This document shows, piece by piece, positions 7,432-22,355 of a DNA stretch of 27,805 bases. The stretch comes from a virus. The position numbers and the translations under genes were made by a program. The first letter of the stretch is position 1; each line of letters begins with the position of its first letter. Location of the stretch: IMG/VR virus record IMGVR_UViG_3300017527_001189, positions 1 through 27,805 of that record. One strand, given 5' to 3'. The notes under the pieces are model-generated. The model made no database searches, was not told the origin of the DNA, and saw only the letters and a list, made by a program, of their open reading frames with translations.

Positions 7432-8064
7432 ATGGCAAAAGTAGCATATGAGACAATCGTTGGGCATGAGGATTTTGATTACAATGATTTTAAACAAGTA
7501 GTAAAGGACTTGAATGATTCAGGTTTATTAGAGAAAAAAGTCAATTTTGTTGGTAAGAAAGAAGTGGCTGTAAAGGCATTTCTGGATGCAGTGGAAAGGT
7601 TTTCTGATGAAGATGTGAGGAAAATGCCAGACGCAGCATTTGATATGAACAACAATTTCATTGATATCTTAGAAAACGCAGAGGCAGACGGTGAAGAAAG
7701 TGAAGGTGAAGAAGAGGGTGAAAGTGAGGGTGGAGATGGTAGTGCAGAAACCAATAGTGTAGAAGTTGAAAATAAACAAAAGAAAAAGAAGGAAGTTAAG
7801 AACAAAAAGGCCCAAAAGGAAAAGAAACCCTTTAAAAAGAAGGACAAATCAAAATATACCCGTTCTAACGCTCTTGTTGAATCATTACCTGAAAAAGAAG
7901 AAACAAAAACAAGAACCCAGATGGTAAATGATGCTAATCAACTTTATATTGAAAATGGTGGAAACGATAACTTGAAAGTTGCAAAGGCGCTTTTAAATTA
8001 TGTTATGCCGTCACTTCTTCTTTTAAGAATATTAACAAAAGACAAAGAAGAATATAAAAGATGA
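7432..8064 (+). CDS. Unknown protein with acidic then basic low-complexity linker
   Basis: 210-aa protein. The start has GAGAAAGGAGAAC upstream. The first 80 residues look like a small folded domain (HEDFDYNDFKQVVKDL, then an EVAVKAFLDAVERF helix). They are followed by about 30 residues rich in Glu, Gly and Ser, then about 35 rich in Lys, then a C-terminal helical part of about 55 residues. Such a charge-segregated linker is common in chromatin- or nucleic-acid-associated proteins, but no function can be assigned. It is the first gene after promoter-like copy 2 and overlaps the radical SAM gene by ATGA. Confidence 0.72.
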   Translation: MAKVAYETIVGHEDFDYNDFKQVVKDLNDSGLLEKKVNFVGKKEVAVKAFLDAVERFSDEDVRKMPDAAFDMNNNFIDILENAEADGEESEGEEEGESEGGDGSAETNSVEVENKQKKKKEVKNKKAQKEKKPFKKKDKSKYTRSNALVESLPEKEETKTRTQMVNDANQLYIENGGNDNLKVAKALLNYVMPSLLLLRILTKDKEEYKR

Positions 8065-8987
8065 AACCTTATCAAGGAATAGAGCATCAATGGTTAAATG
8101 ATGGATATAAAATATGGATTTGCAACAATATTTTATATGCGTCTATTATTTTTACTTGGAAAGTAAATGAAGTCATTTCTTTAATAAAAAATCAAAAAAG
8201 AAAGGCAATTGTTGGTGGCCCAGGAGCTATTTTAATGAGTTCTCACTTTGATAATATCGCAGAAGTGAGAACTCATTTAGATTTTATCGAACCTGTTACA
8301 CTACATAATCCCTTTGCGACTTTTACAACAAGAGGCTGTGTTAATAATTGTAAATTTTGTGCTGTTCCAAAAATAGAAGGAAAGTTCAAAGAAATATCCA
8401 ATTTTATTCCAAGACCTATTATTTGTGATAACAATTTTTTAGTATCAAGTAAAAAACATTTTAATAAAGTAATTGATAGCTTAAAACAAATGCCATATGT
8501 TGATTTTAATCAAGGATTAGAGGCAAAATATTTTACATCAGCTAAAGCTGATAGAATCGCTGAATTAAAAAACGTAAAAATCAGATTTGCATTTGATGTC
8601 ATAGAAGATGAAAAATTTATTATTGATGCGATTAATCTTGCAAAGAAAAAGGGATTTAAAAAAATTAGTTGTTATGTCCTTATTGGTTTCAATGACACTC
8701 CGTCAGATGCTTTGTACCGAGCAAAACTTCTTAGAAAGTTAAATATCTATGTTTATTGCATGAGATATCAACCATTGGATTCTCTTCAAAAAGATTCATA
8801 TATTTCTCCTAATTGGACAGATTATGAATTGAAAAGAGTTAAAAATTATTGGAAATGGCCACTCAATATTCCATTTGAAGAATACGAAACAAGAAAAGAC
8901 ACGTCAAATTTAGGATTTGGTTTAATAGACAGAAGAGGAATTAAAATAAGAAAGGAATTATACAAGGAGGAAATTAATGAAAATTAA
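8061..8987 (+). CDS. Radical SAM superfamily protein
   Basis: 308-aa protein with the radical SAM cluster motif CX3CX2C at Cys93, Cys97 and Cys100 (RGCVNNCKFC), preceded by a glycine-rich VGGPGA at about 51-56. Downstream strands FNQGLEAKYF, FAFDVIEDEKF and CYVLIGFNDTPSDAL fit a partial TIM barrel. The family uses a 4Fe-4S cluster and S-adenosylmethionine to generate a radical; the substrate here is unknown. It resembles uncharacterised radical SAM proteins in other phages. It is ATGA-coupled to the gene before it and overlaps the sliding clamp start by 11 bases. That position may mean nucleotide, tRNA or DNA modification, but this is not shown. Confidence 0.82.
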   Translation: MKPYQGIEHQWLNDGYKIWICNNILYASIIFTWKVNEVISLIKNQKRKAIVGGPGAILMSSHFDNIAEVRTHLDFIEPVTLHNPFATFTTRGCVNNCKFCAVPKIEGKFKEISNFIPRPIICDNNFLVSSKKHFNKVIDSLKQMPYVDFNQGLEAKYFTSAKADRIAELKNVKIRFAFDVIEDEKFIIDAINLAKKKGFKKISCYVLIGFNDTPSDALYRAKLLRKLNIYVYCMRYQPLDSLQKDSYISPNWTDYELKRVKNYWKWPLNIPFEEYETRKDTSNLGFGLIDRRGIKIRKELYKEEINEN

Positions 8988-10115: not shown

Positions 10116-11378
10116 ATGGATATTAAAAGTGGATTTGGTTTAGTTGGACAATCACAAAAAATTAACTATAAGAAGCTCAAAAAGCCCAGAAAACTTAAAA
10201 GGCTTAAAAAGTATAAAGGGAAATTAAATTATAAAGAGGTTATAAATGAAAGTGAAAAATTATTCTCAAGGTTAGAAGAATTAAATGTCCCGACAAAAAT
10301 TGAAGCAATAAATAAATTGAGATCGATTCTTCACAAACATAGCCCTTTTTCGGAAGAACCTGTTGATTTTGTTCAATGGGTACCAATAAACAAAATAGAG
10401 GCGAATGATTATAACCCTAATATTGTTGCCCCACCAGAAATGAAATTGCTCGAACGCTCTATAAAGGAAGATGGTTATACACAACCAATTGTAGCATGGT
10501 ATAGAAACGATAATTATGAAATTATTGACGGGTTTCATAGACACCGTGTTGGCAGAGAATGCAAAATTATCACCGAGAAAGTTAAAGGGTATTTACCATT
10601 AACAATTATCAACACTAACGGCCAAGAGAGTAAAGGTAACCGTATTGCGTCAACAATACGGCATAACAGAGCAAGAGGTAAACATACAATAATGGGGATG
10701 TCAGATATAGTTCTTGAATTAAAAAATAGAAATTGGACCAATGAAAGAATAGCAAAAAATTTAGGCATGGATCAAGATGAAATATTAAGATTATGCCAAA
10801 TTACAGGCTTAACAAAGTTATTTGCAGATCAAGGATTTTCTAAATCTTGGGATATTGAAGGGGATATTGATGAACATGATTTCGAAGAACTTTCTGATGA
10901 TGTAGAGACATATGGAGAAGAAGTAACTAATGTAAGAACTGTAAACACAAACGACAATACCAGAATATTCCATACTTGGGATAAATGGGAGTGCGCTAAA
11001 GCAGGTTTATATAAAACATCAAAAGAAGGCATGACAAAAGAAGAGTGTGAACAAGCATACTGCAATTTTTTATCTGATTTAGATAGATTTGCCGAAGCCC
11101 TTGAACGCGTTATAACAGAATGGAAATTCTCTTGTGAACAGTATCTTACGAATAGTGCAATGAATAGAATTGCTTGGTTAGGGCAAGCCTCTATGTGTTA
11201 TGCGACAGGTATTCCTGCTGCCTTTAGAAGTGGCTTTTATTTATTATCAGAAGAACAACAAATAAAAGCTAATGAAAAGGCACTTATTTATTTAAATAAG
11301 TGGCTTGAAAAAAATAACCGTAAAAAAGTTACAATGGAAGAAGCAGAATCTTTTAGTAGACAATCAGATATTTATTAA
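10116..11378 (+). CDS. ibrB: ParB/sulfiredoxin-fold protein, IbrB-like, with extra C-terminal domain
   Basis: 420-aa protein. A basic N-terminus is followed at about 88-145 by a ParB-like domain with VPINKIEANDYNPN, the SIKEDGYTQPIVAW strand-helix and the GFHRHR box (139-144). The conserved STIRHNRARGKH comes next, then a helical HTH-like part (WTNERIAKNLGMDQDEILRL). From about 285 a second domain begins (TWDKWECAKAGLY, later RIAWLGQASMCYATGIPAAF) that I have seen in phage proteins but cannot name. ParB-like proteins of this type pair with PAPS-reductase-like proteins, as in IbrB/IbrA, reported to activate prophage genes in E. coli. The partner gene lies 190 bases downstream. A regulatory or DNA-modifying role is possible. 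Confidence 0.75.
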   Translation: MDIKSGFGLVGQSQKINYKKLKKPRKLKRLKKYKGKLNYKEVINESEKLFSRLEELNVPTKIEAINKLRSILHKHSPFSEEPVDFVQWVPINKIEANDYNPNIVAPPEMKLLERSIKEDGYTQPIVAWYRNDNYEIIDGFHRHRVGRECKIITEKVKGYLPLTIINTNGQESKGNRIASTIRHNRARGKHTIMGMSDIVLELKNRNWTNERIAKNLGMDQDEILRLCQITGLTKLFADQGFSKSWDIEGDIDEHDFEELSDDVETYGEEVTNVRTVNTNDNTRIFHTWDKWECAKAGLYKTSKEGMTKEECEQAYCNFLSDLDRFAEALERVITEWKFSCEQYLTNSAMNRIAWLGQASMCYATGIPAAFRSGFYLLSEEQQIKANEKALIYLNKWLEKNNRKKVTMEEAESFSRQSDIY

Positions 11379-11392
11379 AAAGTAGAGGAACT

Positions 11393-11578
11393 ATGAAAAA
11401 AATCATAGAAATCACATTTTTGAAAAATTCAATATCCAATCAGATCAATCATATTATAAACAACGAATTTAGCAAATTAGATATTGATGAAATTGTTGAA
11501 GTTAAAAATAGAATCAATCAATCTATATGTAACAAAATTGAAAAAATGGCAGATAGGGCCTTAAAAAATGGCCATTAA
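11393..11578 (+). CDS. Small helical protein between the IbrB-like and IbrA-like genes
   Basis: 61-aa protein with no family I recognise. A GAGG lies upstream and the end overlaps the start of the PAPS-reductase-like gene by 11 bases, so coupled translation is likely. It is mainly helical, with alternating Ile/Asn-rich and charged segments (EIVEVKNRINQSICNKIEKM). Its position inside the conserved gene pair suggests an accessory or antitoxin-like partner, but there is no direct evidence. Confidence 0.6.
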   Translation: MKKIIEITFLKNSISNQINHIINNEFSKLDIDEIVEVKNRINQSICNKIEKMADRALKNGH

Positions 11579-12782
11579 AAGATATAGAAAAATAAATGTT
11601 TTAACAGCGGCAAGAGATCGGATTAAGATAATATTTGATAATTTTGAACGCATATATTGCGCTTTTTCAGGTGGGAAAGATAGTAGTGTAATGTTTCACC
11701 TTATTATGGATGAGGCTATAAAAAGAGATAGAAAAGTTGGCGTAATGTTAATAGATTTTGAAGCGCAATATAGTGAAACAATAAAACATGCCCGCGAGAT
11801 GTTTGCCATATATAAGAATAACATAGATAGACATTGGATATGTGTCCCTATGCTTTTAAGAAATGCTGTTACTAATTTCGAACCAAGATGGATTGCTTGG
11901 GATCCTTCAAAAAAAGATATTTGGGTTAGAGATAAGCCAATAGAGGCAAAAACAGAAAAAGATTATCCCTTTTTTATTGCGGAAATGGAATTTGAAGAGT
12001 TTATAATCTTATTCGCTGAATGGTATAGCCGAGGACAACGAACAGCTGGATTTGTTGGGATTAGAGCAGACGAAAGCCTTCATAGATATTGTGCAATAGC
12101 AACTTGGGAAAAAATTGGTAAAACTTTCAATGGGTATAGATGGACAACAAAAATAGCTAAAAACTGTTATAATATCTATCCTATTTATGATTGGAAAACA
12201 GAAGACATATGGAGATACCATTCAAAATATCCAGATAAAATACATAATGAAATATATGATAAAATGCAAATGGCAGGAGTTAAAATAAGTCAACAAAGAC
12301 TTTGTCAACCATATGGCGATGATCAAAGAAGAGGATTATGGTTATATCATATCCTTGAACCACAAACATGGTTTAAATTAATTGCAAGAGTGAATGGGGC
12401 AAATTCTGGCGCTTTATATATAAAAGAAACTGGTAATATGACAGGTTATAATAAAGTTACTAAACCGGATAATCATACATGGAAAAGTTTTTGTAATATG
12501 TTACTTCAAACTATGCCAAAAAAAACAAGAGACCATTATATAATTAGATTCAAAAAATTTATTTATGGGTGGAGTAGAAGAGGCTATTCTACTATCCCAG
12601 AAGAGGTACCATTGGAATTAGAAAGTAAATGCTGGGCTCCATCATGGAGAAGACTATGTAGAGTTTTATTAAGAAATGATTATTGGTGTAAAGGGTTAGG
12701 GATGGTTCAACCTAAAAGCGAAGCATATGGAAGATATCTTGAAATCAAAAGAAAAAAGAAATTAGATGACAAAATTAAATAA
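11568..12782 (+). CDS. ibrA: PAPS-reductase-like PP-loop protein, IbrA-like (DUF3440 type)
   Basis: 404-aa protein with the PP-loop SGGKDS at about 34-39, followed by the helix SSVMFHLIMDEAIKR and a strand VMLIDFEAQY. This is the N-type ATP pyrophosphatase fold of PAPS reductase and DndC. Later features match the IbrA/DUF3440 group: GIRADESLHRY, IYPIYDWKTEDIWRY, LCQPYGDDQRRGLW and the C-terminal KCWAPSWRRLCRVLLRNDY. It is unlikely to reduce sulfate, because assimilation genes are absent. It more likely adenylates an unknown substrate together with the ParB-like partner. A role in nucleic-acid modification or transcription activation is inferred from relatives. Translation appears coupled to the small gene before it. 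Confidence 0.8.
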   Translation: MAIKRYRKINVLTAARDRIKIIFDNFERIYCAFSGGKDSSVMFHLIMDEAIKRDRKVGVMLIDFEAQYSETIKHAREMFAIYKNNIDRHWICVPMLLRNAVTNFEPRWIAWDPSKKDIWVRDKPIEAKTEKDYPFFIAEMEFEEFIILFAEWYSRGQRTAGFVGIRADESLHRYCAIATWEKIGKTFNGYRWTTKIAKNCYNIYPIYDWKTEDIWRYHSKYPDKIHNEIYDKMQMAGVKISQQRLCQPYGDDQRRGLWLYHILEPQTWFKLIARVNGANSGALYIKETGNMTGYNKVTKPDNHTWKSFCNMLLQTMPKKTRDHYIIRFKKFIYGWSRRGYSTIPEEVPLELESKCWAPSWRRLCRVLLRNDYWCKGLGMVQPKSEAYGRYLEIKRKKKLDDKIK

Positions 12783-13005
12783 CATTATTCAAGAAATCAA
12801 AGATGAAATTGATTTTTCAAATGAAAAATTCAAACCTGGATTCAACTCAAATCAAGAATGGTTAGGTACATTGAGAGAAGAATACAAGGAACTTGAACAA
12901 GAAATATTTAACAGCAAAGAAGTTTGGGAAGGCAACTCAAAAATGAAAAAAGAAGCAATTCAAGTTGCAGCAATGGCAATCAAAGGAATTCTATCACTAT
13001 GTTAG
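12766..13005 (+). CDS. Small MazG-like protein
   Basis: 79-aa all-helical protein with the acidic EEYKELEQE helix and the EAIQVAAMAIKGI helix typical of small phage relatives of the MazG/dUTPase-like nucleotide pyrophosphohydrolase fold. Such proteins may hydrolyse nucleoside triphosphates, but at this length it may be a structural relative without full activity. It starts inside the end of the PAPS-reductase-like gene and ends four bases into the polymerase gene, so all three are probably translated from one message. Confidence 0.65.
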   Translation: MTKLNNIIQEIKDEIDFSNEKFKPGFNSNQEWLGTLREEYKELEQEIFNSKEVWEGNSKMKKEAIQVAAMAIKGILSLC

Positions 13006-16000
13006 ACTTTGCACATCTCCATGTACATTCAGAATATTCGTTATTAGATGGATTTGGTACAGCTGAAAATTATGCTAAAAAAGCAAAAGAAATCGGGTAT
13101 AAATATCTCGCTTTGACAAATCATGGCAATGTCGATGGCTGCATTGATTTTCAAAAACAATGTCTAAAGCATGGAATAAAACCCATCCTTGGTTGTGAAT
13201 TTTACATTGTCCCTGACGCAACCAAAAGAGAAAACAAGGACAGAAAGCATATTACTATCCTTGCCAAAAACCAAGAAGGATGGCAGAATATTCTTCAAAT
13301 GCTCACGTTTGCTAACCTTGAAGGATTCTACTACAAACCACGTATAGATTATAAATGTCTATTAAATCATCTTAATGGTCTGGTTATCATGTCTGCCTGT
13401 ACCGCAACATTTATAACCGACTATGATTTCCTGGTAACATTAACCAATGCAATGCCAGATATAAATGACTTCTATTTAGAAGTCATGCCACACAACTTCA
13501 AAGAGCAGAAGGAATTGAATAAATATATCATATCAATTGCAGATGAATTAAAATGGACAATAGTAGCCACCAATGACTGTCACTATATAGAAAAGAATGA
13601 TTGGAAGGCGCAAGAAGTCTTGCTCGCCATCCAAACAAAGGCAAAATGGAATGACAAAGAACGATTTAAATTTCAAATGAAAGGACTCCACCTAAAAACT
13701 CCCGCCGAAATGTTTCAAGCCTTCCTGAAACAAAATTCCCTTACAAAAAATGAAATACTAAGAGCAATGAACAACACCATTGAAATAGCGGAGAAATGTG
13801 CGGGATTTAGAATTAAAAGACAGAAAATCCATCTCCCAGAAGTCCCCGAATATGCTGGCCAGGATAAGGCGGAAATTCTTTGGTCACTCTGCCAAAAAGG
13901 CATCAAAAATATAGATAAAAACGAATGGAAGAAAAATAAACTTCAATACCTCGCAAGACTTAAAGAGGAATTTGATCTTATTACAAGTAAAAAGTTTGAA
14001 GGCTATTTTCTTATCGTTTACGAATTAATAAATTGGTGTAAAGAGAACGATATAATGGTGGGACCTGGAAGAGGATCGGTTGGTGGATCGTTAATCTCTT
14101 ATCTTTTAGACATCACTTGTGTTGACCCATTGGAGTACGACCTTTTGTTTTCACGGTTCATTTCAGAAGAACGGATTGACTATCCAGATATAGATATTGA
14201 TTTTGAGGATCGAAAAAGGGATTTAGTCAAACAGCATCTCGAAGATCTCTATGGCAAGGGTAACATTGCAAGCGTCTCCACATTTCTTACAATGAAAGGG
14301 CGCGGGGCAATCCGTGATGTCGCAAGAGTCTTCGACATACCATATAAACAAGTCGATGAGTTTGCAAAAACAATTGACGACGCAACCGGTAAAGATAAAA
14401 CAGGGGAGATTCAACAAGCAATTAACCAAACTAATGAAGGGAGGCAATTTTACAATAAATATCCTGAGGTAGTTAACTTTGCTATGAAACTTGAAGGGCA
14501 GATTAAAGGGGTTGGTCAACATGCAGCGGCATCGATTATATCAGCCGACCTAATTGCAGATGGAACAAGAGCGCATCTTATAAAGCGGAAAGGCAATATA
14601 GCTATAAACTGGGCGATGGAGGACTCAGAATATGTTGGTCTAATAAAATTAGACATACTGGGTCTAAGCACATTGAGCATCTTAAGTGAGACAAAGAAAC
14701 TTATTAAACAAAATCACAATGCTGATCTAACTTACAGAGATATTATTCCAAATGACAAAACTGTATTGAATGAATTTGCATTAGGACATAATGAGGGAGT
14801 CTTTCAATTTAGCACCTACGGTCTAACTGATCTTTGTAAGAAAATGAAGATAAAAACTTTCGAGGATCTGGTTGTTTCCAATTCGTTGTATAGACCAGGC
14901 ACACTACGAAGTGGTATGGTTGATGAATATCTAAAGAGAAAAAATGGCAGAAAGTTTAAAGGTTTGCATCCGAAAATTGATGGAATAACAAAAGATACAT
15001 TTGGTATAATTATATTCCAAGAACAAGTGATGAACCTCGCCTACCAATTAGCTGGAATGCCGTGGAAAGACGCCGATAAAATTAGAAAGGTTATTGGTAA
15101 ATCAAAGGGCACAAAAGAACTCCATAAGTTCAAAGAACAATTTGTCAATGGTTGTGTTGAAAATAAGACGTTGAATAAAAAAGTCGCCTCTAAACTATGG
15201 AATGACTTAGAGAGCTTTGGTGGATATGGCTTCAACCGTAGTCATTCTGTTGAATATTCATTAATTGGTTACTGGACGCAGTGGTTTAAAACCTATTACC
15301 CAACAGAATTTATTTGTGCATCATTAACATTTGGAAGCGAAGGGAATAAGGAATCGCTTATAAAAGAAGCTTTAAGATTGGGATTGAAATTAGTGCTACC
15401 TAAAGTTGGTATTTCCGATTCACATAAATGGGTTGCAAAAGATAACTATCTTTACATCCCATTTATAGAAGTTAAGGGGTTTGGTGATAAGACATCAAAA
15501 ACTGCATCGGTATTTAAAAGAAAAGCTCCTGCGAAAAGACAAGGATTCTTTGGTATAAAAGATAAAGCCAAAGAACAATCAAATAATAAAAAAACAAAGA
15601 TGGAGAAGATTTTAGATGACATAGGTGCATTTGATAATAATACTCAAATACCAGATACGGCAAAAGATTATTTTTCATTTCAAATCAGTCAAAATCCAAA
15701 ATTAATCTATCCAGAATTATTTAAAATTATGAACCCAAGAAAATATAAAGTCCAAATAAACGATATTATAAAAGGCCAAATAAATAAAATACCAGTCATA
15801 CAAAAGAAACGGTTCCGAAATACCGATATTATTCATTGCGATAAATGTGAGCTAAGAAATGAATGCACAAAACCAGTGCCTTCCTCAATGGGTATCTACA
15901 ATATTATGATATGCGCGGAGGCCCCTGGAAAGGATGAAGACAAACAAGGCATGGGGTTCGTGGGCCGTGCAGGTAATGATATTTTATGGCCAGAGATAGA

Positions 16001-17546
16001 GAGATATGGATTGAAAAGAAAACATTTCCATATAACGAATGTGGTTAAATGTTTTACTGATCCAAATACTCAAATTTATACATCAAAAGGGTTGAAAATT
16101 ATATCTGAAATAGAAATAAATGATAGAGTTCTTACTCATAAAGGTAGATTTCGTAAAGTATCATGGGTTCAAAAAGATGATTATATTCCCAGAGGTAAAA
16201 AATTAATTGTTATCAAATATAAACATTTAGGCGGCGGCAGGAAAGTTAAAACTACAATAGTAACTCCAGAACATCCATTTTTTATCGACGATGATTGGAA
16301 AGAGGCTTATAAAATCAAAAAAGGAGACAAATTAAAAATTTTGGCAAAACGTTGTCTTCAATGTAATTCTAAAATCCCATTTGACAGCATAAGAGATTTT
16401 TGTTCTAAAAATTGCGCTACTATTTATTCTAATAAAAATAGAGAATGGAACAATGAAAGCAAAAACAAAGTATCAAAAAATATGAAAGGGTTATATAAAA
16501 CTGGGATTTTAGATGCCTCAAAAATTACCATCAACGCGAATAAGAAAACCAGACAACTTGTTAAAGATGGAGAACAAATTCTTTTAAGCAAAAATAGAAA
16601 TTTTATTCACCCCTTTAAAGGTAAAACAAAATATAATTGTGAATCAATAATGAGAGGTTCAAAAAAGACTTATAGCGCGAATAAAGAAAATGGACATCTT
16701 TCAAAATTACCATTATTAGGGAAGCAAGCTTTAGAAAATTATTACAAAAAACCTGGCAACAAAAGAAAACCTATTTCCAAAAACAGAAATACAAAAATAG
16801 AGCTTGTGATGGCCTGGGCATTAAAGAAAAGAAAAATAAAATTTATCCATGGTCAAAATTTGTTCCATTATTATCCTGATTTTATTATTGATGGATATAA
16901 TTTAATAGTTGAATGTGATGGTTTATTTTGGCACTCCAGTGACAAAGCTATAAAAAGAGACAGAGAAAAAGATGATTTTTTAGAGTCTAAAGGGTACACG
17001 GTTTTAAGATTTACTGATAACCAAATTAATAAAGATGTTTTTTCTTGTATAGACGAAATAGAAAGGATCATGAGCAACCATAATGGGGAATATGAGTTTA
17101 TGGAAACCGAAATTGTATCTGTTAGGCAAATTACAACATATGGGAAAAGGAAATTATACAATTTTGCTGTTTGGGGAGATAATTCTTATATTGCTAATGG
17201 TCTTGTTTCTCACAATTGTTGGCCATCAAAAACAAGAACACCAAATATCAAACACATTAAAGCGTGCTATCCATGGTTGCAGGAAGAGTTAGAAAGGATC
17301 GATTGTAGATTAATTCTTGCATTTGGCAATACGGCGATCAAATGTTTTACAGAAATGACTGGTGGTATCACTAAACTATCAGGTAAGACAGAGTGGAACG
17401 AAAAGGCAAAGGCGTGGTTATGTTGGTGTGTTCATCCTGCCGCCGTATTACATAACAAAGAACAAAATGAAAGGTTATTTGAAGAAGGTATTAGAAATTT
17501 TATACAAACAATTAAAAGATTTGGAATTGATGAAATCTTATACTAA
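12999..17546 (+). CDS. dnaE: DNA polymerase III alpha (DnaE) fused to uracil-DNA glycosylase-like domain, interrupted by an intein
   Basis: 1515-aa precursor, 1126 aa after splicing. ATG 12999 is chosen because the PHP domain begins at once (HLHVHSEYSLLDG); upstream codons belong to the previous gene. PHP motifs LTNHGNVDG and TNDCHY follow. The polymerase core has GPGRGSVGGS, the catalytic PDIDIDFE (396-403, Asp397 and Asp399) and a third Asp near 552 (KLDILGL). After the fingers and a helix-hairpin-helix part, residues about 945 onward form a family-4-type uracil-DNA glycosylase-like domain: CDKC (947-950), AEAPGKDEDKQG with FVGRAG (about 973-992), NVVKC, KAC 16 residues on, and HPA (1479). 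It would replicate phage DNA with the clamp and loader here. No 3'-5' exonuclease domain is evident. Uracil scanning by the fused domain is inference. Confidence 0.9.
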   Translation: MLDFAHLHVHSEYSLLDGFGTAENYAKKAKEIGYKYLALTNHGNVDGCIDFQKQCLKHGIKPILGCEFYIVPDATKRENKDRKHITILAKNQEGWQNILQMLTFANLEGFYYKPRIDYKCLLNHLNGLVIMSACTATFITDYDFLVTLTNAMPDINDFYLEVMPHNFKEQKELNKYIISIADELKWTIVATNDCHYIEKNDWKAQEVLLAIQTKAKWNDKERFKFQMKGLHLKTPAEMFQAFLKQNSLTKNEILRAMNNTIEIAEKCAGFRIKRQKIHLPEVPEYAGQDKAEILWSLCQKGIKNIDKNEWKKNKLQYLARLKEEFDLITSKKFEGYFLIVYELINWCKENDIMVGPGRGSVGGSLISYLLDITCVDPLEYDLLFSRFISEERIDYPDIDIDFEDRKRDLVKQHLEDLYGKGNIASVSTFLTMKGRGAIRDVARVFDIPYKQVDEFAKTIDDATGKDKTGEIQQAINQTNEGRQFYNKYPEVVNFAMKLEGQIKGVGQHAAASIISADLIADGTRAHLIKRKGNIAINWAMEDSEYVGLIKLDILGLSTLSILSETKKLIKQNHNADLTYRDIIPNDKTVLNEFALGHNEGVFQFSTYGLTDLCKKMKIKTFEDLVVSNSLYRPGTLRSGMVDEYLKRKNGRKFKGLHPKIDGITKDTFGIIIFQEQVMNLAYQLAGMPWKDADKIRKVIGKSKGTKELHKFKEQFVNGCVENKTLNKKVASKLWNDLESFGGYGFNRSHSVEYSLIGYWTQWFKTYYPTEFICASLTFGSEGNKESLIKEALRLGLKLVLPKVGISDSHKWVAKDNYLYIPFIEVKGFGDKTSKTASVFKRKAPAKRQGFFGIKDKAKEQSNNKKTKMEKILDDIGAFDNNTQIPDTAKDYFSFQISQNPKLIYPELFKIMNPRKYKVQINDIIKGQINKIPVIQKKRFRNTDIIHCDKCELRNECTKPVPSSMGIYNIMICAEAPGKDEDKQGMGFVGRAGNDILWPEIERYGLKRKHFHITNVVKCFTDPNTQIYTSKGLKIISEIEINDRVLTHKGRFRKVSWVQKDDYIPRGKKLIVIKYKHLGGGRKVKTTIVTPEHPFFIDDDWKEAYKIKKGDKLKILAKRCLQCNSKIPFDSIRDFCSKNCATIYSNKNREWNNESKNKVSKNMKGLYKTGILDASKITINANKKTRQLVKDGEQILLSKNRNFIHPFKGKTKYNCESIMRGSKKTYSANKENGHLSKLPLLGKQALENYYKKPGNKRKPISKNRNTKIELVMAWALKKRKIKFIHGQNLFHYYPDFIIDGYNLIVECDGLFWHSSDKAIKRDREKDDFLESKGYTVLRFTDNQINKDVFSCIDEIERIMSNHNGEYEFMETEIVSVRQITTYGKRKLYNFAVWGDNSYIANGLVSHNCWPSKTRTPNIKHIKACYPWLQEELERIDCRLILAFGNTAIKCFTEMTGGITKLSGKTEWNEKAKAWLCWCVHPAAVLHNKEQNERLFEEGIRNFIQTIKRFGIDEILY
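16050..17216 (+). mobile_element. Intein with PD-(D/E)XK-type homing endonuclease
   Basis: 389-residue intein (precursor residues 1018-1406). Splicing blocks are complete: Cys1 at CFTDPNTQIYTSKG, block B TPEHPFF, block F NFAVWGDNSYIANG and terminal His-Asn followed by Cys +1. Between them lie a zinc-finger-like CLQC...CSKNC, a NUMOD-like segment (NREWNNESKNKVSKNMKG) and an endonuclease domain with ELVMAWALKKRKIKF, YYPDFIIDGYNLIVECDG, WH and TVLRF. This matches the Vsr/DUF559-like PD-(D/E)XK group rather than LAGLIDADG. It should excise itself and, at DNA level, home into unoccupied alleles. Codon use is AT-rich like the host gene, so no recent transfer is obvious. Confidence 0.9.
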
Positions 17547-17557
17547 AGGAGGTAGGG

Positions 17558-18496
17558 ATGGAAGAAAACACGGGGTTGCATCTAAAATATAGACCTAAGA
17601 AATTCAGCGAAGTTATTGGCAATAAATCAACGGTAATTTCTCTTCAATCCGTTATAACGAGAAAAGATAATGAGGTTAGATCCTTTATCTTTAAAGGTCC
17701 ATCTGGTACTGGCAAAACAACACTGGCAAGGATTGTAGGTAGTGAATTAAATTGCCATGAAAGAGACTTCAAAGAATTTAACGCGGCAAACACTCGTGGT
17801 ATCGACACAGTTCGAGAAATATCTGCAACATCTTCCCTCGCACCAATGAGTGGCAAGATAAAGATTTACCTTCTCGATGAGGCTCATTCATTAACGAAAG
17901 ACGCCCAAAATGCCTTATTAAAACTATTAGAGGACACCCCAAGGCATGTTAGGTTTATCCTTTGTACGACAGAACCTGAGAAACTTCTGAAAACTATCAA
18001 AACAAGATGTATGGCTTTCACCACCGCTAATTTGAGAAGAGCAGAAATTATTCAGTTATTGAAATATGTATTAGATAAGGAAGAAGTCGATTTACCCGAC
18101 AAGCATTTAAAAGAGATTGCCAGAGTATCAGAAGGTAGCCCTCGGCAAGCACTTGTTATATTAGATTCAATTATTGATATTACTGATGATGAAGAGGCCT
18201 TTGATGCAATCGCAGCAGCAGGGGTAGGTGAGGCAACAGTTCTTGAAATTTGTCGATTACTGATTGACCCCAAAACCAAAGGCCATGCTAAGTGGCAGGC
18301 GATGTCAAAACTAATCAGATCAGTTGATGCAGAACCAGAAAGCATTAGAAGAGCAATACTTGGTTATTTAGGTTCTGCGTTATTAAAGAATGGTAATGAC
18401 CGAATTTCTGATCTGATTTCTTTATTTGAGGAAAATCTTTTCTCCTCAGGCAACTCGGGTTTATACAATGCTCTGTACTTAGGATGCCAACTATGA
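17558..18496 (+). CDS. dnaX: Clamp loader ATPase (DnaX/RFC-type)
   Basis: 312-aa AAA+ ATPase that would load the sliding clamp onto primed DNA. The opening LKYRPKKFSEVIGN is the DnaX signature. Walker A is GPSGTGKT (47-54), Walker B LLDEAH (105-110), sensor 1 lies in the CTTEPEKLL region, and an arginine-finger-like KTRC follows. The zinc-binding cysteines of cellular DnaX are reduced to a single NCHERD. Length matches phage or archaeal small loader subunits, and no separate delta subunit is visible. AAAGGAGG precedes the start, 11 bases after the polymerase stop. Its stop codon touches the first base of a 37-bp direct repeat carrying a promoter-like element. Confidence 0.88.
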   Translation: MEENTGLHLKYRPKKFSEVIGNKSTVISLQSVITRKDNEVRSFIFKGPSGTGKTTLARIVGSELNCHERDFKEFNAANTRGIDTVREISATSSLAPMSGKIKIYLLDEAHSLTKDAQNALLKLLEDTPRHVRFILCTTEPEKLLKTIKTRCMAFTTANLRRAEIIQLLKYVLDKEEVDLPDKHLKEIARVSEGSPRQALVILDSIIDITDDEEAFDAIAAAGVGEATVLEICRLLIDPKTKGHAKWQAMSKLIRSVDAEPESIRRAILGYLGSALLKNGNDRISDLISLFEENLFSSGNSGLYNALYLGCQL

Positions 18497-18534
18497 AAAT
18501 AAAATCTAAGGTTTTTAAAAAAGTATATTATAAT
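18496..18534 (+). promoter_or_regulatory. Promoter-like AT element (copy 4), first arm of a 37-bp direct repeat
   Basis: T5 at 18512-18516, A6, G and TATAAT at 18529-18534. Bases 18496-18532 are repeated exactly at 18669-18705, so the gap holds two promoter-like copies that bracket the 18-bp array. Confidence 0.6.
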
Positions 18535-18548
18535 AAAAGTAAGAATTA

Positions 18549-18667
18549 AGAATTGCCATAAACAGGGAGAAAACCAAAAGCCCAGAGCGAGCCACATTCT
18601 TCGAGAAAACCATAGGTGAGGAGCGAGCCATATTATTATGAGAAAACCATTATTATTGAGCGAGTCA
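18549..18667 (+). repeat. 18-bp-phased array of GAGAAAACCA / GAGCGAGCCA (first array)
   Basis: Six 10-bp boxes alternate: GAGAAAACCA (18567, 18603, 18640) and GAGCGAGCCA (18585, 18621; 18658 has GAGCGAGTCA), separated by variable 8-base spacers (one of 9). A degenerate AGAATTGCCA lies one period upstream at 18549. The boxes share GAG..A.CCA, so the basic period is 18 bp and the composite period 36 bp. The array is intergenic, between two promoter-like copies. It could be iterons of an origin, operators for a repeat-binding protein, or an RNA-level signal in the transcript from 18534. Confidence 0.7.
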
Positions 18668-18668
18668 A

Positions 18669-18709
18669 AAAATAAAATCTAAGGTTTTTAAAAAAGTATA
18701 TTATATAAT
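18669..18709 (+). promoter_or_regulatory. Promoter-like AT element (copy 5), second arm of the 37-bp direct repeat
   Basis: Identical to copy 4 through 18705, then TATAAT at 18704-18709, 19 bases after the T5 start instead of 17. It is immediately followed by AAAAAGGAGG for the next gene, leaving a very short leader. Confidence 0.6.
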
Positions 18710-18733
18710 AAGAAAAAGGAGGTGAATAAATTA

Positions 18734-19198
18734 ATGGACTTTGAAAAAGATTGCCAGATTGATAAATACAATTTAGATATCGAATGGGAAAGGCAACCTC
18801 ATTTATTTGGTCAATATGCAAAAGCTAATGCCGAAGCCGTAGCGGAAAGAGATCGAGCAAAACAAAATAAAGATGTTACATCCGCAGAGTTAAGGTTGGA
18901 AATTTTAAATGGCTATAACGAAAAGGGTCTAAAAAAGCCAACTGAAAACGCTATTGATGCAGAGATTATAACTTCAAGCCCACACAAAAGAGTATCAGAA
19001 GAATTGATTGATGCCAATGAGAAAGTTGCCTTGACCGATGCTGCTAAATGGGCAATACAGCAAAAGAGAGATGCACTGGAAAACATGGTCAAACTCCACC
19101 TTGCCGGTTACTTCTCTGACCCCAAAATCCCAAATGAGGCAAAGGAACAAAGTGATCAAAAAACAAGGAGACGGTTGAAGAAATCGTTGAAGAAATAA
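18734..19198 (+). CDS. Unknown helical protein, possible UvsY-like recombination mediator
   Basis: 154-aa protein. The ATG at 18734 is preferred over the GTG at 18722, which overlaps the AAGGAGG. The N-terminus (FEKDCQIDKYNLDIEWERQP) has the D..ID..NL..E pattern I associate with phage UvsY-type recombination mediators. A long helical, charged stretch (AEAVAERDRAKQNKDVTSAE) and LENMVKLHLAGYF follow, and the C-terminus is very basic. UvsY helps load the RecA homologue onto SSB-coated DNA, and genes for a gp32-like SSB and a RecA-like protein lie directly downstream, which supports the idea. Similarity is by pattern only, so the name is tentative. Confidence 0.6.
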   Translation: MDFEKDCQIDKYNLDIEWERQPHLFGQYAKANAEAVAERDRAKQNKDVTSAELRLEILNGYNEKGLKKPTENAIDAEIITSSPHKRVSEELIDANEKVALTDAAKWAIQQKRDALENMVKLHLAGYFSDPKIPNEAKEQSDQKTRRRLKKSLKK

Positions 19199-19423
19199 AT
19201 GGATTTACTAACAAAAATATTCATATTTATTTTAATACTCTTAGCAGGATACATAGTTATAAGGATCTTTGCATACGGGGCTGCTAAGTCAGTCATTGAT
19301 GCAATGCAACAAACCTTACAATCTAAAGAAAGGAGAATGCAAAATGGCATCGAAGAAAAGACAACAAATGAGAGACAAGTTACGGGGCAGAACAGAACAG
19401 AGCGAAAAGACGAGAGAAAGTAG
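19199..19423 (+). CDS. Small single-span membrane protein
   Basis: 74-aa protein starting at the base after the previous stop, without a clear ribosome-binding site, so it would depend on re-initiation. Residues about 5-27 (LTKIFIFILILLAGYIVIRI) form one transmembrane helix, followed by a charged cytoplasmic-like tail. The last 80 bases overlap the start of the SSB gene in another frame, which is more overlap than elsewhere in the window. It may be real or a chance reading frame; the strong hydrophobic N-terminus argues for real. Function is unknown. Confidence 0.5.
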   Translation: MDLLTKIFIFILILLAGYIVIRIFAYGAAKSVIDAMQQTLQSKERRMQNGIEEKTTNERQVTGQNRTERKDERK

Positions 19424-20387
19424 CGGCAGGTTCGGCAGCTTTTTTAAATCGAACTTGCCAGAAGGGGCACAATTCTGGACAGCAGGCAAGGGTAATCACA
19501 TCATTGATATCATTCCATATGTAGCAGGGCCAAATGATCCAGATCCGGCAACAAATGAAGGTGATCCTACCTATGTTCTTGATCTTTTTGTTCACGGCAA
19601 TGTCGGAGTAAATGATGATGCGGTAGTATGTCCGGCAAGAACCTATAAAAAACCATGCCCAATTTGCGAACACCAAAAGCAATTACGACAAGAAGATGAT
19701 TTTGATGAAGACTTAGTAAAGAGCCTTAATCCAAAAAGGCGATGTATTTATAACATTGTTTGTTACGATACAGATAAGGAAGAGGATAAAGGTATTCAAA
19801 TTTGGCCGGTAGCACATTGGTTTTTCGAACGTCATCTTACCTCCCTTGCTCGCAATTCAAGAACTGGAGAACTCGAAACATTTGCTGACCCCGATGATGG
19901 AAAAAGCATTGAGTTTGAGCGTCAAGGCACTGGCATGACCAATACGCAATATATTGGTCATAAATTCAGTGATCGGCCCGATCCAATTCCAGATGAATAT
20001 TTAGATCAAGCCTTTTGTCTTGATGAGTTAATTGAACTCAAAAGCTATGACGAGATCTACAAATTATATTGGCAGGAAGATGCTCCTGAAGCAGACGATC
20101 ATGAAGAAGAGGAACAGGAAAAGGAAGAGGAAGAGAAACCTAAAAGGTCTGCTCGTCGTTCTTCTAAACCCAAAAAGGAGCCAAAAGTTAAGGAAGGGGA
20201 GTGCCCTTATGGTGGAGAGTTTGGTGTCGATCTTGGCGAACTAAACGAATGCGGTGAATGCAGTCTTTTTGAAGAATGTTCAAAACGGATGGAAGAACTA
20301 CAGGCTGACGGACAATCTGACGATGATAAAGATGGGAGTGAAAAAGAAGAGGAAAAACAAACTCCAAGAAGGCGACGGAGAAAGTAG
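19344..20387 (+). CDS. gp32-like single-stranded DNA-binding protein
   Basis: 347-aa protein; ATG 19344 has AGGAG eight bases upstream, while an upstream in-frame ATG lacks one. The basic N-terminus (SKKRQQMRDKLRGR) resembles the cooperativity region of T4 gp32-like SSBs. The core shows VLDLFVHGNVG, then CPARTYKKPCPICEH (Cys96, Cys105, Cys108), the likely structural zinc site, and WPVAHWFFERHL. The C-terminal part is unusual: an acidic run, a basic linker, a second cysteine cluster (ECPYGGEFGVDLGELNECGE), another acidic run and a very basic last six residues, whereas most SSBs end in an acidic tail. It would coat ssDNA for the replisome and the RecA-like protein. Confidence 0.8.
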   Translation: MASKKRQQMRDKLRGRTEQSEKTRESSGRFGSFFKSNLPEGAQFWTAGKGNHIIDIIPYVAGPNDPDPATNEGDPTYVLDLFVHGNVGVNDDAVVCPARTYKKPCPICEHQKQLRQEDDFDEDLVKSLNPKRRCIYNIVCYDTDKEEDKGIQIWPVAHWFFERHLTSLARNSRTGELETFADPDDGKSIEFERQGTGMTNTQYIGHKFSDRPDPIPDEYLDQAFCLDELIELKSYDEIYKLYWQEDAPEADDHEEEEQEKEEEEKPKRSARRSSKPKKEPKVKEGECPYGGEFGVDLGELNECGECSLFEECSKRMEELQADGQSDDDKDGSEKEEEKQTPRRRRRK

Positions 20388-20462
20388 CCAAGCCGGTTGA
20401 GAAAACCACACTCTATGAGCGAGCCACATACGTCGAGAAAACCAAGAGCATTGAGCGAGCCA
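20381..20462 (+). repeat. 18-bp-phased array of GAGAAAACCA / GAGCGAGCCA (second array)
   Basis: Four perfect boxes with exact 8-base spacers: GAGAAAACCA at 20399 and 20435, GAGCGAGCCA at 20417 and 20453. A degenerate AAAGTAGCCA at 20381, in phase, overlaps the SSB stop codon. The array ends 16 bases before the RecA gene start and leaves little room for a promoter. It is the same element as at 18549-18667, about 1.8 kb away. Confidence 0.7.
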
Positions 20463-20478
20463 TAAAGAAAGGTAGCAA

Positions 20479-21504
20479 ATGAGAAAACTCAAAAGAAAAT
20501 CGGCTGCAGAACAAGTAAGAGAGGTTGCTAAAAAACCAATTAAGAAAGACCCTCCCATTAGATTTGATAAGGTTATCTCCACCGGCTCCACAGTCTTAGA
20601 CCTTTGTATATCTGGTGGGAGGGTGCGAGGCGGTGGAATTCCCGGTGGCATATTACTCGAAATCTTTGGCCCTTCAGCCTCTGGGAAAACTGCAGTATTG
20701 GCAGAGATATGTTCCTCAGCTCAATCAAAAGGCGGACAGGTAAAATTCCAAGATGGCGAGGCAAGGCTTGATAAAGAGTATGCAAGGATCTATGGCTTAT
20801 CATTAGTGCAATCAGGTGAGAACTACTCCAGACCAAAGACAGTTAATGAAATGTTTGATGAGATAGAGGAATGGGAACCCGAAAATCCTAACGCCATTAA
20901 TGTAATTGGATCGGACTCACTCGCTGCTCTCTCCACTGAACTTGAAATGGGCGCGGAAGATAAAATGGGAATGAAGAGGGCTAAAGACTTCAGTGCCCGC
21001 ACCCGCAAGTGTTGCAAACTAATAGCGGAAAAAAAGTGGGTCATTGCCTGCACCAACCAATTGCGGGAAGGCCAATATGGTGAGACCACTCCTGGTGGCA
21101 AAGCCGTGCCTTACTACTCCGCCTTAAGGATGAGAATTAGAGAAGTTAAAAAGGTAGAGAAAGAAAAAGTTGTGTTTGATGTAAAGCAAAAGAAAACAAA
21201 AGGAATAGAGTCAGAATGTTACATTAAAAAATCAGACATTGATGATCCTTACAGACTGGCGAAACCGATCTTCATTATCTTCGGCTACGGTATTGATGAC
21301 ATTAGAGGTAATTTACAATGGCTGAAAACAAACACCAAAGCAACAAAATATCATGCGATTGACAAGGAGTATCAAAGTCTTGATGCCGCTGTTGGTTACA
21401 TTGAGAGGATGAAGTATGAAGATCAATTAAAAGAAGAAATCATCGATTTGTGGGAAAAAATTGAGGAAGAGTTTAAAATCGATAGGAAACCAAAAGTAAG
21501 ATGA
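20479..21504 (+). CDS. recA: RecA/UvsX-type recombinase
   Basis: 341-aa RecA-fold protein. Opening residues ISTGSTVLDLCISGG and GGGIPGGILLEIFG match the RecA start. Walker A is GPSASGKT (64-71), Walker B lies near 147-158 (INVIGSDSLAAL), loop regions are around MGMKRAKDFSART, and TNQLRE and TTPGGKAVPYYSALRMR correspond to RecA's TNQIR and GGxALKFYASxR. It would form filaments on ssDNA for strand exchange and recombination-primed replication, helped by the SSB and perhaps the protein at 18734. Its leader is occupied by the second 18-bp array, and the gene is ATGA-coupled to the exonuclease gene. The name recA is used for the family; it may be nearer phage UvsX. Confidence 0.88.
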   Translation: MRKLKRKSAAEQVREVAKKPIKKDPPIRFDKVISTGSTVLDLCISGGRVRGGGIPGGILLEIFGPSASGKTAVLAEICSSAQSKGGQVKFQDGEARLDKEYARIYGLSLVQSGENYSRPKTVNEMFDEIEEWEPENPNAINVIGSDSLAALSTELEMGAEDKMGMKRAKDFSARTRKCCKLIAEKKWVIACTNQLREGQYGETTPGGKAVPYYSALRMRIREVKKVEKEKVVFDVKQKKTKGIESECYIKKSDIDDPYRLAKPIFIIFGYGIDDIRGNLQWLKTNTKATKYHAIDKEYQSLDAAVGYIERMKYEDQLKEEIIDLWEKIEEEFKIDRKPKVR

Positions 21505-22355
21505 TACCACTTGTCATAGACTGTTCACCTATATGTTACAAAGCCCTTGGAGTAATGGGCGAGAACCTATCCTATGAAGACCAACAGACCGGGGTTATAT
21601 TTTCGTTTCTAATGCAGGTGTTTAAATTTGCCGATGCATTTGCAACAAAAGAACTCGTATTTTGTTGGGACTCCAATCACTATAAGCGCAAAGATATTTA
21701 CCCGGAGTACAAAGAGAATAGATCAGACAACGGCATAACCCTTTACCAAAGACAAATAGCAAAGAAACAGATGCTTGAGCTTAGATGCAAAATCCTTCCT
21801 GCCCTTGGGTTTAAAAATAACTTTATCGAAAAAGGCTACGAGGCAGATGATCTTATTGCAAAGATTGTTATGAGAAATCCAAATACTTGTTTCGTTATGG
21901 CAAGCGACAATGATTTATGGCAACTGTTGGATGATTGTGTAATATACAAACTTGATAAAGATAATAGTGTTTTCACAAAAGAAATGTTCATTGATCAATA
22001 TGGCATCGAGCCTGATGAGTGGAATGAAGTCAAAAACATGGCAGGATGTAGCGGCGATAATGTCAAAGGGATAAAAGGAGTAGGGATAAAAAAGGCTATT
22101 CAATATTTAAAGCACGAAATGCCAAAGGGTAAAATAAAGAAAAGAATTGATAGTAGAGAGAGTAAACAAATTATTGTACGCAATGATAGCTTGATCCGAT
22201 TACCATTCGTTGGCCTTAAATTTGATGGTAAATTAAATAAAACAGAATGTTCAGATTTTAGCACCTGGACTGATATTTTTACTGAATATGGTTTTAATTC
22301 ATTTTTGAAAAAGAATTATCTAAATAAACTAAAAACCACTTTTCACTTAAAATAA
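21501..22355 (+). CDS. 5'-3' exonuclease / flap endonuclease (T5 D15, T4 RNase H type)
   Basis: 284-aa FEN-family nuclease that would remove RNA primers and 5' flaps. Metal-binding acids are visible: Asp7 (VIDCSP), Asp57 (FCWDSN), Glu114-Asp116-Asp117 (GYEADDLIA), Asp136 and Asp138 (MASDNDLW), and Asp186 in SGDNVKGIKGVGIKKA, which is also the helix-hairpin-helix/helix-3-turn-helix signature. The arch-region residues YKRKDIYPEYKENR match. Length is usual for phage members. Translation is coupled to the recombinase by an ATGA overlap, so the pair likely acts in primer processing and recombination-dependent replication. A promoter-like element follows. Confidence 0.88.
   Translation: MIPLVIDCSPICYKALGVMGENLSYEDQQTGVIFSFLMQVFKFADAFATKELVFCWDSNHYKRKDIYPEYKENRSDNGITLYQRQIAKKQMLELRCKILPALGFKNNFIEKGYEADDLIAKIVMRNPNTCFVMASDNDLWQLLDDCVIYKLDKDNSVFTKEMFIDQYGIEPDEWNEVKNMAGCSGDNVKGIKGVGIKKAIQYLKHEMPKGKIKKRIDSRESKQIIVRNDSLIRLPFVGLKFDGKLNKTECSDFSTWTDIFTEYGFNSFLKKNYLNKLKTTFHLK

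Follow-up and report, generated by a model that had tools for sequence, protein, structure and literature searches.

Among the replication genes of the virus record IMGVR_UViG_3300017527_001189 lies a series of short boxes at nearly constant spacing, and the question raised by this locus is what kind of element these boxes form and which protein may use them. The analysis covered the whole stretch of 27,805 nucleotides (hereafter the window). An earlier note, based on the letters alone, had described alternating 10-bp boxes with regular phasing between two promoter copies, and had stated that they match no known repeat class. The alternation and the phasing are confirmed; the statement about repeat class is wrong, as the boxes match a dual-repeat TIGR array. 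The window contains two such arrays, and both are very probably orphan (solo) TIGR arrays that would rely on a Tas protein from outside the known sequence.

Boxes and Genes in the Window

Array 1 consists of six 10-bp boxes that start at 18567, 18585, 18603, 18621, 18640, and 18658 (steps of 18, 18, 18, 19, and 18), with the last box ending at 18667. The sequences GAGAAAACCA and GAGCGAGCCA occur in turn, and the sixth box is the altered form GAGCGAGTCA. An in-phase degenerate box upstream, already seen in the earlier note, is present and corresponds to the known 5'-truncated edge repeat of TIGR arrays (Table 1). Array 2, which had been overlooked, has boxes at 20399, 20417, 20435, and 20453; its degenerate opening box overlaps the ssb stop codon, and recA starts directly downstream at 20479. 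Of the ten boxes in the window, nine are exact copies of the consensus, and all spacers are 8 nt except for one of 9 nt. Seven box pairs were observed in the window, compared with 0.12 expected, and none of 100 shuffles reached seven. Array 2 closes on an intact box and array 1 on the altered one, while other arrays end with GAGCG. Searches of the window against Rfam, and of positions 17500-19500 against a phage collection by blastn, returned no match.

Table 1. Coordinates of the two arrays and adjacent features in the window.
Feature	Position	Strand	Description
Promoter-like P1	18496-18542	+	Upstream of array 1; 47-bp direct repeat, 91% identical to 18669-18715
5'-truncated edge repeat AGAATTGCCA	18549-18558	+	Opens array 1; in phase; only ..GCCA kept
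tigRNA unit 1 (putative)	18559-18591	+	Spacer A TAAACAGG, loop repeat GAGAAAACCA, spacer B AAAGCCCA, edge repeat start
tigRNA unit 2 (putative)	18595-18627	+	Spacer A CATTCTTC, loop repeat, spacer B TAGGTGAG, edge repeat start
tigRNA unit 3 (putative)	18631-18667	+	Spacer A TATTATTAT, loop repeat, spacer B TTATTATT, final edge repeat GAGCGAGTCA with altered box C
Promoter-like copy P2	18669-18715	+	Between array 1 and the UvsY-position gene; repeat of P1
UvsY-position gene	18722-19198	+	Small, conserved; 35% identical to same-place genes of L012 and L032
5'-truncated edge repeat AAAGTAGCCA	20381-20390	+	Opens array 2; read from identical L069 sequence; ssb ends at 20387
Array 2, two tigRNA units (putative)	20391-20462	+	AGCCGGTT/CACTCTAT and CATACGTC/AGAGCATT; directly upstream of recA

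The two promoter copies of the earlier note hold as a direct repeat, and similar AT-rich promoter-like elements surround the array at the corresponding locus of L032 and L012. A sigma-70 scan gave no fit for P1, such that P1 and P2 are candidate promoters by resemblance only. As for the gene context, the clamp loader, a gp32-type SSB, and RecA stand, and the designation "UvsY-like" lacks a supporting database match; the gene at that position matches only PHROGs of unknown function. Further upstream, positions 12924-17546 hold an open reading frame of 1540 amino acids that by eye is a DnaE-type polymerase. Its C-terminal part reads, also by eye only, like a uracil-DNA-glycosylase domain that is split by an intein, which itself contains an endonuclease-like segment. 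A ParB-like gene (10116-11378; PHROG 2159, E = 1.8e-71) lies close to a PAPS-reductase/DUF3440 gene (region 10116-12782), and we take the two to resemble the IbrB/IbrA pair. This ParB-like gene was considered as a TasParB and set aside, as it is away from the arrays, near the PAPS-reductase gene, and looks like part of a different pair.

The Box Pair Across IMG/VR

The search of other phages for the box pair that the earlier note had suggested was run in IMG/VR with the pattern GAGAAAACCA-N7..10-GAGCGAG and found 71 loci. Most have the same 36-nt unit as the window, namely GAGAAAACCA, eight random bases, GAGCGAGCCA, and eight random bases. Most loci also carry longer arrays (some with about 60 boxes), mostly at strict 18-nt steps, and several phages hold more than one array. 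A handful of isolated matches at other spacings probably reflect chance. Over about 2,240 boxes, the information content is mostly 0.8-1.9 bits per position in the repeats (0.4-0.6 at the first base) and below 0.1 in the spacers. In the loop repeats, the positions of CCA are conserved at 88-99% and those of AG at 96-98%; the edge repeats have Y-C-A, with CA at 91-97% and AG at 97%. The D motif of these arrays is AG. Truncated edge repeats retain GCCA at the 5' end of arrays and GAGCG at the 3' end. The exact box pair also occurs in five contigs of bacterial or archaeal metagenome-assembled genomes (L169-L173). The contig G003 (L100-L101) has very long, somewhat degenerate TIGR arrays at positions 18471-21722, and no TasA was found in its 28 kb. 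A radical SAM gene adjoins these arrays, and a related gene is found in the window at 8061-8987.

One protein family, TasA, recurs in the fetched stretch of 48 of the 71 loci, as revealed by comparison of open reading frames across loci. The profile of this family (A1) matches TasH (E = 4.5e-62) and TasR (E = 5.8e-46) among PDB entries, with weaker matches to IS110-type transposases. All 110 arrays scored are on the tasA strand, at a median distance of 98 bp, and 84 of them are within 500 bp of the gene. Examples of these TasA proteins (L009:4106-4813 and L032:3303-4277) belong to phrog_4285, which is labeled "transposase" in PHROGs. The RecA filament has a pitch of about 18.6 nt per turn; this pitch had been considered as the cause of the 18-nt step and was dropped once the link to Tas appeared.

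TIGR-Tas systems have two alternating repeats of 8-12 nt, short spacers, and RNAs processed to 36 nt, and the repeats bind Nop-domain Tas proteins as RNA (Faure et al., 2025, Science; PMC12045711). Their arrays start with a truncated edge repeat and most commonly have 5-15 units; in TasR arrays, both repeats end in CCA and box D is UG (PMC12045711). The window has two distinct alternating repeats in this length range and variable spacers of 8-9 nt, within the range of about 8-12 nt, in a 36-nt unit. Based on the truncated ends and the published description, GAGCGAGCCA is assigned as the edge repeat and the A-rich GAGAAAACCA as the loop repeat. Among the three options in the earlier note, the RNA-binding platform came close, since such repeats bind Nop-domain Tas proteins as RNA, while origin iterons and a multi-site operator are unsupported.

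No Detectable tas Gene in the Window and Some Relatives

A tas gene beside the array, as found in 48 of the 71 related loci, is what a complete TIGR-Tas system would include, and none was found in the window. The window and the contig IMGVR_UViG_3300017613_002652 (G001) share an identical overlap and together cover 35.4 kb. Three profile searches of this stretch detected no tas gene, while tas-bearing records do give signals in the same searches. The arrays are therefore read as orphan. Because the sequence is only a genome fragment, such that the absence covers 35.4 kb and not the whole genome, the feature is classified as a TIGR array rather than as a complete TIGR-Tas system. Although TasH and TasR are well within the range of the A1 profile, a more diverged Tas may escape these profiles. 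Searches with the Pfam Nop (PF01798) and IS110 C-terminal (PF02371) models were uninformative, as known TasA carriers were missed too. A scan for close relatives by RecA found nothing beyond the overlapping contig.

Several observations count against the orphan reading. The window lacks the gene that is the usual partner of such arrays; no terminator, which would be expected for a TIGR array, was found after array 1 on the + strand; and the arrays are short (three and two units). An ordinary TIGR-Tas system seen in part, with tasA in the unsequenced part of the genome and the window arrays as outlying ones, is possible but less likely than not. It would fit the limited 35.4 kb, which carries the replication genes, and the presence of multiple arrays in several phages. 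However, arrays in tas-bearing loci usually flank tasA, and a relative with the same promoter-array-promoter form (G002) has no tas by profile searches in 89 kb. This relative carries terminase, portal, tape measure, and tail genes, and no terminal repeat was found in it. Two other array-bearing records appear to be complete genomes, as judged from terminal direct repeats: G014 (80,025 bases; repeat of about 114 bases; 16 boxes) and G019 (63,240 bases; repeat of about 55 bases; 9 boxes). The same profile searches detected no tas in either. Dual-repeat TIGR arrays are known as such, and the unusual feature here appears to be arrays without a detectable tas gene.

Synteny and Possible Array Turnover

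The contigs G040 (L032) and G002 (L012) share the replication module with the window, and their clamp loader is about 48% identical to that of the window. Between the clamp loader and the UvsY-position gene, G040 has a promoter-like element, an array, tasA, an array, tasParB, an array, and a second promoter-like element. In the same interval, G002 and the window have a promoter-like element, one short array, and a promoter-like element, with no tasA-tasParB. The complete syntenic locus in G040 and the tas-empty one in the other two suggest a further explanation, in which a complete locus has lost tasA and tasParB by deletion and the array that stayed behind is a functionless remnant. This explanation is unlikely, given that nine of the ten window boxes keep the exact consensus and that further tas-less arrays occur in the two terminally redundant genomes. 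In addition, G002 and G040 are 97-98% identical across most of their shared ~37 kb, yet their spacers are largely different; no G002 spacer exactly matches a G040 spacer, and the closest differ by one to two of eight bases. This contrast argues for a higher rate of change in the arrays than elsewhere in the genome, and against simple decay. G040 (with tasA-tasParB and three arrays) and G002 (with one array) thus offer a natural comparison for array turnover and effector loss or gain.

The earlier note had placed the array within the replication module. However, in more than 15 further related contigs the clamp loader, the UvsY-position gene, and SSB are all retained and no phased boxes lie between the first two, such that the array is better regarded as an accessory element. 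A set of origin iterons in the replication module, or an operator there with several sites for a DNA-binding phage protein, would account for the regular spacing and the location beside the clamp loader, ssb, and recA. Both are highly improbable, because relatives have the same genes with no boxes at the corresponding position and the same boxes adjoin tasA in many phages, always on its strand.

Putative Targets

Targets were modeled as spacer A, zero to two bases, and the reverse complement of spacer B, which was derived from the published cleavage rules (PMC12045711). None of 327 guides matched its own record with zero or one mismatch, whereas 3 of the 611 shuffled pairs did. Among 828 guides searched against the 2.9 Mb of fetched sequence, 7 had exact matches, a number without enrichment over eight shuffled runs (2-9) and including two window guides whose target stretches had been fetched on purpose. 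Scans of IMG/VR with four window guides returned at least 120, 7, 73, and 11 stretches, compared with 11 for a mismatched control pair, and the largest count is mostly one conserved terminase motif from one contig group. Guide 1 (TAAACAGG/AAAGCCCA) matches the terminase large-subunit motif ..LADKQGWALFIS.. (a gene assignment made by eye) with a 2-base gap, in about 100 contigs among the matches listed (L174-L293). Guide 1 does not match the terminases of G002, G003, or G014. Because guide 2 also has repeated matches in related contigs, the recurrence for guide 1 can be due to chance, and the terminase match is unproven as a target.

A Proposed Model for Orphan TIGR Arrays

The reading of both stretches as orphan arrays entails the following model. 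Each array is ordered as edge repeat GAGCGAGCCA, spacer A, loop repeat GAGAAAACCA, and spacer B with a 36-nt period. Transcription on the + strand would probably start at P1 for array 1 and reach array 2 by read-through from ssb to recA. The precursors would be processed to 36-nt tigRNAs, and each of these would be held by two copies of TasA, a Nop-domain protein that would act as a dimer, through box C (CCA) and box D (AG) at the ends of both repeats. The two 8-9-nt spacers may then act as guides, each base-pairing with a different strand of the target DNA. The Tas protein would act in trans and could be encoded by a co-infecting relative, by a resident provirus, or in the part of this genome that lies beyond the known sequence. 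One suggestion is that P2 allows expression of the downstream gene even when the precursor is cut.

A more tentative proposal, which we regard as rather doubtful, is that tas-less phages both retain and renew their short TIGR arrays and rely on the Tas of a co-infecting or resident relative. If so, guide arrays would circulate among phages apart from their effector, as has been proposed for viral mini-CRISPR arrays. The origin, expansion, and target finding of TIGR arrays were left open in the original work, which started from Nop-domain proteins (PMC12045711); arrays without tas would therefore be missed by that approach. The conserved box pair provides a simple DNA pattern for finding further arrays.

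Comparison With Known Systems

Compared with TIGR-Tas arrays, the window arrays likewise have two alternating repeats of about 10 nt, 8-9-nt variable spacers, a 36-nt unit, a 5'-truncated edge repeat, box C (CCA) ending both repeats, and an A-rich loop repeat; the relatives also share a TasA gene on the same strand. In contrast, the window arrays have no tas in the known sequence and no terminator after array 1, are very short and upstream of replication genes, and have AG rather than UG (TasR) as box D. The TIGR-TasA operons with tasParB find a counterpart in G040, where tasA and a ParB-like gene are likewise flanked and separated by arrays with 10-nt repeats. Its operon locus corresponds to array 1, and the window and G002 keep the array without either gene. 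Origin iterons are similar in being short direct repeats close to replication genes; however, the window boxes are of two alternating types with random spacers, and in relatives they are locked to the tasA strand and absent from replication modules. Finally, virus-borne mini-CRISPR arrays are short guide arrays with a proposed role in virus-virus conflicts (PMC6858448). The TIGR arrays of the window differ from these in repeats and guide type, are unrelated in sequence, and have a presumed effector in trans, yet both are short guide arrays carried by viruses.
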